A stretch of 41,582 nucleotides of DNA from Chthonomonadaceae bacterium (GTDB taxonomy: Bacteria; Armatimonadota; Chthonomonadetes; Chthonomonadales; Chthonomonadaceae). How positions within the stretch are numbered: position 1 is the stretch's first letter; the number at the start of each line of letters is the position of its first letter. Position numbers and translations under genes: made by a program. Positions 6,100-17,201 of this stretch are shown here, piece after piece. The stretch covers positions 1-41,582 of the forward strand of contig JANWZQ010000093.1 of assembly GCA_025054835.1 (NCBI GenBank), given 5' to 3'. Under the pieces are notes generated by a model, which did no database searches, was not told the origin of the DNA, and was given only the letters and a program-made list of their open reading frames with translations.

Positions 6100-6108
6100 A
6101 TACGTGAA
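6087..6108. promoter_or_regulatory. Palindromic operator candidate over the -10 box
   Basis: TTCACG (6087-6092) and CGTGAA (6103-6108) are perfect inverted half-sites 10 bp apart, centre to centre about 16 bp. The spacer contains the TATACT -10 hexamer. A dimer bound here would block polymerase, so this is a likely autoregulatory site for the winged-helix protein encoded just downstream. The binding protein is inferred. Confidence 0.5.
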
Positions 6109-6146
6109 AAGTTTGTCAGGAAATTCCCGACAGGTTCGATTTTTGC

Positions 6147-10336: not shown

Positions 10337-10365
10337 TTGACACGAGGCATGGAAGTCACTATAAT
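10337..10365 (+). promoter_or_regulatory. Consensus promoter of the cobalamin riboswitch operon
   Basis: TTGACA (10337-10342) and TATAAT (10360-10365) are both perfect consensus hexamers 17 bp apart. The start site would be about 10372, directly before the riboswitch aptamer. Such a strong promoter leaves regulation to the RNA. Confidence 0.85.
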
Positions 10366-10606: not shown

Positions 10607-10634
10607 AACCATCCGCGAACCGGATGGTTTTTTT
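10607..10634 (+). terminator. Intrinsic terminator of the cobalamin riboswitch
   Basis: AACCATCCG (10607-10615) pairs perfectly with CGGATGGTT (10621-10629) over a 5-nt loop, and the 3' arm runs into a T tract ending at 10634. A second copy of CCATCCG at 10513-10519, directly after the aptamer, can pair with the 3' arm and act as antiterminator. Confidence 0.9.
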
Positions 10635-10713
10635 GTTGCCCCTGAGCTCCTGCCTTTCTGTCAGGGTTCGGGCTCTGATCAGTGCGGTGTTTTCTGGAGG
10701 AAAGGAGAGTTGG

Positions 10714-12603
10714 ATGATCCGTAGCCACTGGTTCGGTGCGGCGCTCCTGCTGGCGACCGCACCCTGCGCTGGTCTGGCGCAACAGGTTGAAGGGTTTCAA
10801 GCGCCCACCGGTTATGCGGCCTTCCGGTTGGGTCTGTCCGGCAGCGCGTTTGCGGTTGCGCCGGACGGCAAGTTTGCTCTGGCGCAGGACGACTTCGGAG
10901 GCCGTGCGACCGTTACTGTGTACGACCGTATCGGGACAGGCCGGCGGGTCCTGACGACTTTTCAGGCCCCTGCCGGAACATCGTGGCAGTTTCTCGGGGG
11001 TCTGGCCTGGCAGGATGCCAGCACGCTGGTGATCAGCGAGAACGGGAGCGCAAGAACGGTGTTCTCCGCCTCACTGACCTCTGGCGAAGTGACCCTGCTG
11101 GCCCCGGTGAACAGCCTGCCGAATGTGGCGCAGATCGCGTTTGCGCCGGACGGCGTACTGTACGCGGGTCTGGCCAATGGCCCCGGCGCGAACGCTGTGG
11201 TCACTGTGGCTGGTGGCACAGTACGGCCGTTCGCATCCAACTTCGGGGCGGGCTATCTGGGGGGGTTGGCGTTTCGCCCTGCAGACGGTGCGCTGTTTGT
11301 GGGGGACACGAACGACCCGTTCTTTGCCGGGAATCCGGGGCAGGTACTGCAACTGAGTCCGGATGGTCTGCTGGTCGGACAGTTCTCGCTGGCCGGAGGA
11401 GGCGGCAGCGGGATTTATGACCTGGTTTTTGCGCCGAACGGTGATCTGTTTGCCAGCACAGGTCGCACGCTGACATTGCTGCGCGCGGGCACGAGCACGG
11501 CGGTACCGTTCGGGATGTTTTCCGGAGTGTTCCCCTTCCCCACGGAGCTGGACTTCTTTGGTGGAGAGTTCGCTCCCTTCAGTGGCGGGAGCGGGCAGTT
11601 GATCGTCAACGGGGAGTTCACCGGTGTGGGTGGACTGTTTGTTGTGCAACCAGCAGCAGTACCGGAACCTTCCGGTTTGATCCTGGTGGCGGCCGGTCCG
11701 GTTCTGCTGTTTCTTCTCTTCCTGCGACGCCGGGTATGGCTTGCAGTGGTGCTGTGCGTTGTGGCACCTCTACCGACTGCCGCGCAGTTCGCCACGCGGG
11801 TATGGGCCTACAACAGTGCCGGGGCGGTGCCCGGGTTCACGGACCCGACCAGAGCACTGGGGCCTCCTTCGACTACCGCCACGCCGACCGTGCCGGACAA
11901 TTCGAGCATCGTTTCGATCGGGAATGGCGGATATCTGGTTCTGGGTTTTGACGCGCCGATCCGCCGACAATACTACCGGCGGGACGGGTTTGACTTCATC
12001 GTATTTGGCAACGCCTTTTATGTGGGTGGCAACATTCACCTGCGTTTTCAGGAGCCCGGGTTCGTGGAGGTCGGGCTGGACCTGAACCGCAACGGCTACG
12101 ACCCGGACGACCCTTTTTACCTGCTCCGGGGCAGCCCGAACCCTACAAGCCTGCCGTTTCAGGGGATCGATGATCGCATCCACATGACATGGGGCTATGC
12201 GGATGTGACGCCAACCAACGGCGCGGGAAATCCGTTCCTTCCGGATGACCCCTTTACTTCCGGGATCACTCCGGGCTCCGCCGGTGGAGATGCTTTCAGT
12301 CTCTCCTGGGCGGTGGATGCGAGTGGCAATCCGGTGGTGCTGGATTACGCGGATTTCATCCGGATCCGGCCGGCGGGCAACTGGAGCACGGAGATTGATG
12401 CGGTGGTCGTGTTGCCGTGGGAGGACCGTCGGCGCCCTGATCCGCGCTCGCCGTACGAGCGGCTGTACCAGGTATCCGGTCCACCCCGTGGCTTCCGTGC
12501 GACGCCGGCTGCGGTGCCGGAGCCGGCCTCTGCTACGAGCGTGGCGATGGGCATGGCGCTGTGGGCATGGCGCAGGAGGCGCAGTTGCCGGGGAAACCAC
12601 TAG
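10714..12603 (+). CDS. Double surface protein: two domains, each with signal-like helix and PEP-CTERM anchor
   Basis: 629 aa from the ATG at 10714 (GGAAAGGAGAG upstream). Residues 1-23 are a signal peptide. Residues 24-315 form a propeller-like domain with FAPDGVLYAGLANGP and FAPNGDLFASTGRTL. Near 316 comes VPEPSG, a hydrophobic helix and RRR, a complete PEP-CTERM sorting signal. It is directly followed by VWLAVVLCVVAPLPTAAQ (about 341-359), which reads as a second signal peptide. Residues 360-595 (DPTRALGPP, PDNSSIVSIGNGG, DFIVFGNAFYVGGN, GGDAFSLSWAVD, STEIDAVVVL) resemble surface proteins I recall beside cobalamin genes in other bacteria. A second VPEPAS, helix and basic tail end the protein. 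The cobalamin riboswitch controls it. Exosortase-type anchoring is inferred; no exosortase gene is in the window. Confidence 0.82.
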   Translation: MIRSHWFGAALLLATAPCAGLAQQVEGFQAPTGYAAFRLGLSGSAFAVAPDGKFALAQDDFGGRATVTVYDRIGTGRRVLTTFQAPAGTSWQFLGGLAWQDASTLVISENGSARTVFSASLTSGEVTLLAPVNSLPNVAQIAFAPDGVLYAGLANGPGANAVVTVAGGTVRPFASNFGAGYLGGLAFRPADGALFVGDTNDPFFAGNPGQVLQLSPDGLLVGQFSLAGGGGSGIYDLVFAPNGDLFASTGRTLTLLRAGTSTAVPFGMFSGVFPFPTELDFFGGEFAPFSGGSGQLIVNGEFTGVGGLFVVQPAAVPEPSGLILVAAGPVLLFLLFLRRRVWLAVVLCVVAPLPTAAQFATRVWAYNSAGAVPGFTDPTRALGPPSTTATPTVPDNSSIVSIGNGGYLVLGFDAPIRRQYYRRDGFDFIVFGNAFYVGGNIHLRFQEPGFVEVGLDLNRNGYDPDDPFYLLRGSPNPTSLPFQGIDDRIHMTWGYADVTPTNGAGNPFLPDDPFTSGITPGSAGGDAFSLSWAVDASGNPVVLDYADFIRIRPAGNWSTEIDAVVVLPWEDRRRPDPRSPYERLYQVSGPPRGFRATPAAVPEPASATSVAMGMALWAWRRRRSCRGNH

Positions 12604-12619: not shown

Positions 12620-12838
12620 ATGTGTCAGGAAGCGAAGAAGCCTGTGCGTGCCTGTCTGTGTTACGCACGCACCTTTGCAGAGATCAAGGAGCTAGCGTTG
12701 CAGAACGGGTGGCGTACTGTGGCGGAGATCACGCAGGCGCTGGGTTGTGGCGGCGGCTGCGGGCTCTGCGTGCCCTATCTGGAGCGGATGCTGGCGACTG
12801 GTGAGACGGCATTCGCGGTGATTTCCCGGCAGGAGTGA
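12620..12838 (+). CDS. Bfd-like [2Fe-2S]-binding protein
   Basis: 72 aa. The ATG at 12620 follows GGAGG by 4-5 bp and lies 16 bp after the double surface protein, so it belongs to the B12-controlled operon. The spacing CLC near residue 12 and CGLC near residue 51, with CGGGC between, matches the CxC...CxxC cluster motif of bacterioferritin-associated ferredoxin-like domains. The helices FAEIKELALQNGWRTVAEIT and VPYLERML fit that fold. Family members accept or pass electrons, or form modules of larger reductases. A role in cobalamin reduction or iron release is conceivable but not shown. There is no bacterioferritin gene in the window. Confidence 0.8.
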   Translation: MCQEAKKPVRACLCYARTFAEIKELALQNGWRTVAEITQALGCGGGCGLCVPYLERMLATGETAFAVISRQE

Positions 12839-15260: not shown

Positions 15261-17015
15261 TCAGTCGCCGGACTGGTCGAAGTTGCGGATCAGGATGTCG
15301 AGGTCGAGCACGTCCACCGCGCCGTCGTTATTGAAGTCGGCGCCGGCGAGGAAGCCTGCATCGCCCGCGCTCTTATCGAACGAGGAGATCAGATCCGCCA
15401 GATCGAAGACGTCTACCGCGTTGTCGCCGTTGGCATCCCCACCCAGCAGGGTGACGTTGAGCGTTGCGGTGCCGCTGGTGGTGTTGACGCCGGAGACTAT
15501 CCTGCGCAGGTAGGTCGGGGCCTGAACGGTCACCGTGTAGGTGCCGAAGGGCAACCCGCCGACCGTGTACGTGCCAGCGGGCCCCACCTTCACGGGCACC
15601 ACGATCGGGCTACCTGAAGTCGGCTGGAAGGTGAAGGTTACCGTCTGGTCACTGCCCGTATTCTCCCATCGGAGGGTGCCCTGCACCGCGGAAGCCGGCA
15701 CGGCAGTGATGTTGAGTTTCGGCCCGTAACGGAACTGGGTGATAATCATGGGGTTCTGCCCGCGGTAGGTCGCTCCAACGCCGGGTGTGTTCGCGTTATC
15801 CGGGTTGATCACCAGGGTGAGCGTGTTGTCGGTGCGGATGTCGTTAGCGACGACGTCCGCGCCGCCCCCGGTGAGTGAGGGCCCGAACAGATTGATCACA
15901 TCCGTGGTGTCATCGTTGCGCACGAAGTTGAACGTGCGGATGACGGTCTGCCCGGCCGGTTGTGGCGATGGGTAGCGGAACGGGCTGGCCGACGTCTTGA
16001 TGTTGGTGGTGTCATCGGTGGTGTGACTGAAGATCACCGTGCCGTTGGCAGTCTGCGCGAAGTTACTCTGGGTCATACGCAGATCGACGTTGCGCACGCG
16101 CCAGTTGCCTGCGCCGTAGGTGGCATTGAACTGATTGCGGATGCGCGTCAGATTAAAGCGCAGGATGCCGTAGCACCGGGTTGCGGCCGTCTGATTATCG
16201 CCCAGAATATTGAAGAAGTTGTCGCCACCGGAACCGGTGAGCGGTCCCGTGCTGCGGATCTGTGCCGAGAGCACTTCATTGCTCCCGTCGGTGCGGTCCG
16301 CGAGGGTCGACTGCACGGTAGGTTGCGTGCCGTCGTTGCGCTCGGCAGTCACCACCAGCTGGGGTGACAGGAAGCTAATGGCGGGGAGCTGCCCGCGATA
16401 GGTGGCCGCGACGAAGGGGGAGAGCACATTGTCCGGGTTGAACACCAGGGTAAGCGTGTTGTCGTTCTGGATGTCGATGGCGGCCGCCTGAGCGCCCGGT
16501 GTGCCGGTGAACAGGTTGATCGTGTCGACGGTGCCGGTTGTCAGCCCGACAAAGTCGTGTTGCGTGATGCGGATCTGTCCTTCTGGAGCGGGGGTCTGAT
16601 AACGGAAGGGGCTGACGCCGACCGTGTTGATGTCATTGGTGTCGTCCGGGGTGAAGTCGATGAAGAACCGACCGTCCGCAGTGAACGCAGCGTTGTCCTG
16701 CGTGAGTTCGAGCGTGAGGCCGGACACCCGCCAACGGCCGTTGCCGAAAATGCTGTTGAACTGATTGCGTACGCGGGTCAGGTTGAAGCGGGCGATCCCG
16801 TAGGAAGCATTGGCACCGCCATCATCACCCTGGAAGTTGAAGAACCGGAGCCCGAGAGGAGCCGGGCGCGGGCCTGCCGGCTGGATCGTGCCAGTGAGGA
16901 CTTCGATGGCGCCCTGCGCGGGGTCGTTGATGGTGGAAAGCGTGGTTTGCGCGGATGCGACGCTGGACAGTGAAGTCGCCAGCGCACACAACGGCAAAAG
17001 GTCTTTCTTTCGCAT
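15261..17015 (-). CDS. Secreted protein with duplicated module and C-terminal type I dockerin
   Basis: 584 aa from the ATG at 17015 (GGAGA upstream); an upstream extension to 17123 has no ribosome-binding site. A signal peptide (RKKDLLPLCALATSLSSVASA) leads into two homologous modules of about 200 residues. Matching segments are ASYGIARFNLTRVRNQFNS and CYGILRFNLTRIRNQFNAT, then SPFRYQTPAPEGQ and SPFRYPSPQPAGQ, then NDNTLTLVFNPDN and TDNTLTLVINPDN. A carboxypeptidase-regulatory-like beta domain (TVGGLPFGTYTVTVQAP) follows. The C-terminus is a type I dockerin with two calcium loops, DANGDNAVDVFD and DFNNDGAVDVLD. No cohesin gene is nearby, so a non-cellulosomal role is likely, as for many lone dockerins. 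The modules are not recognised. It has its own terminator. Confidence 0.83.
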   Translation of the reverse strand: MRKKDLLPLCALATSLSSVASAQTTLSTINDPAQGAIEVLTGTIQPAGPRPAPLGLRFFNFQGDDGGANASYGIARFNLTRVRNQFNSIFGNGRWRVSGLTLELTQDNAAFTADGRFFIDFTPDDTNDINTVGVSPFRYQTPAPEGQIRITQHDFVGLTTGTVDTINLFTGTPGAQAAAIDIQNDNTLTLVFNPDNVLSPFVAATYRGQLPAISFLSPQLVVTAERNDGTQPTVQSTLADRTDGSNEVLSAQIRSTGPLTGSGGDNFFNILGDNQTAATRCYGILRFNLTRIRNQFNATYGAGNWRVRNVDLRMTQSNFAQTANGTVIFSHTTDDTTNIKTSASPFRYPSPQPAGQTVIRTFNFVRNDDTTDVINLFGPSLTGGGADVVANDIRTDNTLTLVINPDNANTPGVGATYRGQNPMIITQFRYGPKLNITAVPASAVQGTLRWENTGSDQTVTFTFQPTSGSPIVVPVKVGPAGTYTVGGLPFGTYTVTVQAPTYLRRIVSGVNTTSGTATLNVTLLGGDANGDNAVDVFDLADLISSFDKSAGDAGFLAGADFNNDGAVDVLDLDILIRNFDQSGD

Positions 17016-17201
17016 GGTCTTCTCCTTGAACAAGCGAAGGGATTTCGAACCTGCTGCATCACTGCCGTGTACTGCGCTACTGCCACATTCAGTATACTTG
17101 CAGAGGGCGTCTGGATGAGTCACCGGTATTTTAAGGTTCTGTTAAGTTTTGCGTTCGAGTAGCGGCTGACGGCGTGGTGGGCGCGCGGATCCCTGCCGGG
17201 T

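Follow-up and report, generated by a model that had tools for sequence, protein, structure and literature searches.

A gene under a cobalamin riboswitch joins a propeller and a predicted BtuH-type domain, each followed by a PEP-CTERM motif

Why would one reading frame carry two complete sets of surface-sorting signals, and what might its product do? The question is raised by a gene of 629 codons (positions 10714–12603) in a 41,582-nucleotide stretch of DNA from a Chthonomonadaceae bacterium, hereafter the window; coordinates refer to its plus strand unless stated. The frame is open throughout, forms one gene and has homology along its length to fused frames in two further genomes (G182 and G173). 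A preliminary description had read from it, in order, a signal peptide, a propeller and a PEP-CTERM motif with RRR, followed by a further signal-peptide-like segment, another domain and another PEP-CTERM motif, and we located every one of these parts. To this we add a suggested function absent from that description, the capture of B12 under a cobalamin riboswitch.

Two sets of sorting signals in one open frame

Just 5′ of the ATG at 10714 lies a strong Shine–Dalgarno region, GGAGGAAAGGAGAG (10697–10710). The N-terminal signal peptide (10714–10779) has its hydrophobic peak at residues 7–21, in the same place as in relatives, and is expected to be cut after GLA and before QQVEG. It is followed by a β-propeller domain (10780–11652), modelled by AlphaFold at pLDDT mostly above 90 with about 24 strands, or six blades by strand count, and matched to propellers by Foldseek. 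Next comes an internal PEP-CTERM motif (11659–11733, residues 316–340), made up of VPEP at residue 316, a helix and RRR at residues 338–340, and then directly the second signal-peptide-like segment VWLAVVLCVVAPLPTAA (11734–11784), with TAAQ at residues 355–358 and a candidate cleavage site before Q358. The residues across the join are VPEPSGLILVAAGPVLLFLLFLRRR-VWLAVVLCVVAPLPTAAQ-FATRV.

Hydrophobic peaks flank the RRR cluster on both sides (residues 322–336, mean KD 2.86; residues 343–357, mean KD 2.27), and the full-length AlphaFold model combines a confident propeller with a helix at 319–338, a break and a helix at 342–350, joined through a linker of low confidence. By inspection, the join has the features of a signal peptidase I substrate: RRR, just before the second segment, could act as its basic n-region, LAVVLCVV forms a hydrophobic h-region, and T-A-A before Q places small residues at −3 and −1. 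Equivalent segments end in SPAQA before GG in G182 and in LAAA before ND in G173. As the preliminary description had stated, the junction offers neither an in-frame ATG (none in residues 300–385) nor a ribosome-binding site (no Shine–Dalgarno sequence before the in-frame GTG codons at 11746, 11749 and 11761). Its suggestion that the junction TGG is a former stop codon fared less well. A lone TGA-to-TGG substitution leaves no sensible two-gene ancestor because the overlapping ATG at 11736 (ATGA) opens the wrong frame, and stop loss explains the join poorly because no usable in-frame start follows it; a small indel that removed both stop and start is an equally likely origin.

The two PEP-CTERM copies differ in strength. 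Against the Pfam cut-off of 20.7 bits, the C-terminal copy (12511–12600 with its tail; VPEP at residue 601) scores 23.7 bits over 12511–12579 in the genome search and 20.2–20.3 bits in protein scans. The internal copy scores below the cut-off in the window (15.4 bits) and in G182 (19.8 bits) and above it in G173 (24.8 bits), so the profile check proposed in the preliminary description finds the C-terminal motif in the genome search and misses the internal one taken alone; comparison with relatives nevertheless argues that the window's internal motif is real. PEP-CTERM closes the first gene in all genomes. At the end of the second half the motif occurs only in the window and G182, and most relatives have a dockerin-like tail or nothing there. 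A dockerin-like C-terminal repeat replaces it in the BtuH-domain proteins of five loci (L075, L077, L081, L084 and L079; best 22.6 bits, cut-off 22.9), and the G173 fusion also ends in such a tail, which means that double PEP sorting is not a general feature. Exosortase has three matches in the window's genome, with candidates on contigs C155 and C53.

Two other coding regions of the window are recorded here. A BFD-like [2Fe-2S] protein (38.4 bits) adjoins it downstream at 12620–12838, and a surface protein at 15261–17123 (minus strand) appears to contain a tandem duplicate of a domain of about 200 residues and has a dockerin-like tail.

A predicted B12-binding domain behind a cobalamin riboswitch

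Pfam and NCBIfam name neither domain and return only a weak match to the LIC_13355 lipoprotein family; the identity of the second half (11788–12414) came instead from a profile search of solved structures. A profile of this half aligned with 20 homologues matched BtuG1 (E 5.1e-28) and BtuH2 (E 2.4e-20), and Foldseek ranked BtuG1 and BtuH2 in its first three places (E 2.7e-11 to 9.9e-8; global TM 0.54–0.56) for an AlphaFold model of pLDDT 93.6. Asn433 (12010–12012), invariant in 21 of 21 homologues, aligns with BtuH2 Asn399, a contact of the B12 phosphate (PMC8941943). Among the other contact residues, the equivalent of Phe401 is mostly kept, and those of Tyr510, Trp511, His476 and Trp577 are not confidently alignable. 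These comparisons identify the second half as a BtuH-family domain and, as both BtuG1 (PMC10404256) and BtuH2 (PMC8941943) bind B12, suggest that it does so too. DUF4465 (BtuJ) was considered as an identity for this half and had no Pfam support.

The propeller profile, searched against solved structures, reached no BtuG chain at E 0.1. With the full-length model, the best Foldseek match over both domains is BtuG1, which has the same propeller-then-BtuH order, and a role for the propeller in B12 binding is conceivable.

Upstream of the gene we found a sigma-70 promoter, TTGACA-17-TATAAT (10337–10365), that agrees with the consensus at 12 of 12 positions where 0.3 sites are expected by chance, a cobalamin riboswitch aptamer (RF00174, 10377–10523; 34.5 bits against a gathering score of 31.5, E 2.9e-5) and an intrinsic terminator of a 9-bp hairpin and a T run (10607–10629), the likely expression platform of the riboswitch. 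Promoter, cobalamin riboswitch and terminator before a gene are the usual layout of B12-repressed transcription. The fused gene is thus under a cobalamin riboswitch, presumably one that represses it when B12 is plentiful.

CbiC was not found in the window's genome, so there is no sign of corrin-ring synthesis, and the 97% complete assembly (G000) has no TonB-dependent Plug domain, although B12-capture proteins are predicted there; G021, G173 and G182 have exactly one such domain each. On contig C87 (L105, 6077–7811) a second cobalamin riboswitch precedes a DUF1559 pseudopilin and a 219-residue PEP-CTERM protein, the 'NRAALVIDWN' protein, for which we found no solved relative.

Recurrence of the join and of its B12 setting

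We searched 291 genomes of the phylum for both halves. The second half is present in 32 of the 291 and the first in 17, and 13 genomes hold close relatives of both, as one fused frame (three), as adjacent separate genes (five) or unlinked (five). The fused frames, of 629 codons in the window, 623 in G182 and 733 in G173, belong to three genera in three families. The adjacent genes are separated by a TAA stop, 4 nt and an ATG in G021, by a TAA stop, 6 nt and an ATG in the same frame in G177, and by a larger gap in G172; they overlap as GTGA in G176 and as ATGA in G138. Such separate genes, most of whose products have their own signal peptide, bear out the reading of the frame as a fusion that the preliminary description had proposed to check against split homologues; that the fusion is recent cannot be shown.

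A tree of both halves rejected a single clade for all three fusions (p-AU 5e-76) and did not reject a clade of the window and G182 alone (p 0.078). On this evidence the join originated two or more times; a less simple account is an ancestral fusion that split repeatedly. All three fusions keep the PEP-CTERM motif, the Arg cluster, the second hydrophobic segment and small residues at −3 and −1. A single scan of genome contigs gave one distant locus.

Two of the separate-gene loci have irregularities of their own. The propeller gene of G138 (L083, 5393–6330) is split between two frames ahead of its PEP-CTERM motif, by pseudogene formation or sequencing error. The BtuH gene of G176 (L080, oriented 6104–6140, minus strand) has an apparent GTG start overlapping the stop, so that its signal peptide lacks basic residues; a −1 frameshift there would produce the Arg-cluster hairpin join of the fusions.

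The B12 setting extends beyond the fusions. A cobalamin or AdoCbl-II riboswitch lies upstream of the propeller gene in 11 of the 13 genomes, including those in which that gene is unlinked from the BtuH gene; G176 and G182 have none there at the gathering score. Riboswitches also occur at BtuH genes in distant genera, and ten more distant genomes share an operon that runs from a cobalamin riboswitch through a DUF1559 pseudopilin to genes for a BtuH-domain and a PEP-CTERM protein (L086, 4760–8432; L087, L088, L089, L090, L091, L093, L094, L098 and L099). The pseudopilin has an N-terminal methylation motif. The PEP-CTERM protein is propeller-like in six of these operons and a 'NRAALVIDWNDG' protein in four, the latter being the type encoded at the second B12 locus of the window's genome. 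We found no pseudopilin in B12 uptake loci in the literature searched.

Possible fates of the joined protein

We lean towards a PEP-CTERM-sorted, BtuG1-like B12-capture protein that arose when two genes were joined with their sorting signals kept, and whose halves are cut apart after export, probably by exosortase and signal peptidase; we infer both internal cuts and the final location. When B12 is scarce, the riboswitch would let transcription through the terminator, and one polypeptide would be exported, its propeller brought out by the first signal peptide. The PEP-CTERM helix would then stop transfer, leaving RRR inside to double as the basic n-region of the second hydrophobic segment, which would restart export, now of the BtuH domain with its own terminal PEP-CTERM. 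Cutting by exosortase at each PEP and by signal peptidase between TAA and Q would yield equal amounts of two proteins, each sorted on its own, and leave a short hairpin behind, and both proteins might bind cobalamin or help to load it for uptake. Weighing against this reading are the sub-threshold score of the window's internal motif, the doubt that motifs far from the C terminus function (Haft 2006, PMC1569441), the dockerin-like end of the G173 fusion, the lack of a sequence match between the propeller and BtuG in solved structures, and the lack of a Plug domain in the genome. More tentatively, the gene may encode a surface polyprotein, cut by these two enzymes at the shared helix–RRR–helix hairpin into two PEP-anchored B12-capture proteins at a fixed 1:1 ratio, within an undescribed riboswitch–pseudopilin–BtuH–propeller uptake system of the phylum. 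The earlier proposal that one product yields two anchored proteins is plausible in that the Arg cluster, second hydrophobic segment and AxA-like site persist in all three fusions, and is weakened in that the second gene does not usually end in PEP-CTERM.

A serious if rather unlikely alternative leaves the chain uncut, with the two hydrophobic segments as a membrane hairpin that tethers both domains outside, a two-site B12 catcher like BtuG1. BtuG1 does work as one two-domain lipoprotein (PMC10404256), and the window's internal PEP-CTERM is weak; against it, a two-domain protein would not need a hairpin, and all three fusions, although non-monophyletic, retain PEP-CTERM, the Arg cluster and an AxA-like site. 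That recurrence, in three genera outside one clade and with both halves intact and conserved, also makes it improbable that the join is recent and neutral, a chance loss of stop and start that left the internal signals behind and perhaps one half mis-sorted. In favour of such an accident, no close relative of the window has the fusion, the halves are separate in same-family G021, and PEP-CTERM lies near the C terminus 'virtually without exception', motifs far from it being suspected of non-function (Haft 2006, PMC1569441).

Two products might instead come from an internal translation start such as GTG 11746. In-frame GTG codons are present, and the overlaps in G176 and G138 are typical of coupled re-initiation; the window, however, has neither a Shine–Dalgarno sequence for such a start nor a preceding stop codon that would allow re-initiation, and the signal peptide left would have 12–14 residues, none basic, which makes this reading very improbable. 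Least credible is a sequencing or assembly error that deleted a stop codon or caused a frameshift at 11733–11745, as the preliminary description had allowed. The genome is a draft of 202 contigs, but two other genera (G182 and G173), assembled independently, carry the same in-frame join in the corresponding position, which argues that it is not an artefact.

The closest known counterpart is BtuG1 of Bacteroides thetaiotaomicron (PDB 8BLW chain B; BT_1490), a natural propeller–BtuH fusion with two B12 sites (PMC10404256), which likewise places propeller before BtuH in one surface protein from a B12-riboswitch locus. BtuG1 differs in being a BtuB-bound lipoprotein whose propeller forms the B12 lid, whereas the window protein has PEP-CTERM sorting and a predicted membrane hairpin between its domains, its propeller is unrelated or only very distantly related, and no BtuB was seen. 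BtuH2 (PDB 7BIZ; BT_1956) and its family share the homologous B12-binding domain and the phosphate-contact Asn; BtuH2 has PKD domains and a different anchor, in place of the PEP-CTERM or dockerin-like tails of the window protein and its relatives. From PEP-CTERM/exosortase proteins (PMC1569441), with which it shares a signal peptide, PEP motif, helix, basic cluster and an exosortase in the genome, the window protein departs in having one of two motifs mid-protein. The myxosortase paper (PMC11980579) states that sorting tags can work in that position and cites MXAN_5598, whose internal MYXO-CTERM is also a C-terminal-type tag thought to come from gene fusion; tag, protease and domains differ there, and a further tag of its kind is not described. 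ZepA (PMC10957091) resembles the window protein as a PEP-CTERM exoprotein for the capture of a scarce nutrient, in its case zinc, and is unfused and induced under zinc deficiency. BtuH domains, BtuG1-type fusions, PEP-CTERM sorting and internal sorting tags are thus each already known; their combination, its repeated occurrence and the riboswitch–pseudopilin–BtuH–PEP operon were not found in the literature searched.

By these results, the BtuH-type capture of B12 that has been studied in gut Bacteroidetes would extend to an environmental phylum whose surface proteins are sorted by exosortase, and exosortase biology would gain a likely ligand system. The recurring back-to-back arrangement of PEP-CTERM and signal peptide opens to experiment the standing question of whether exosortase can act on a motif away from the C terminus.
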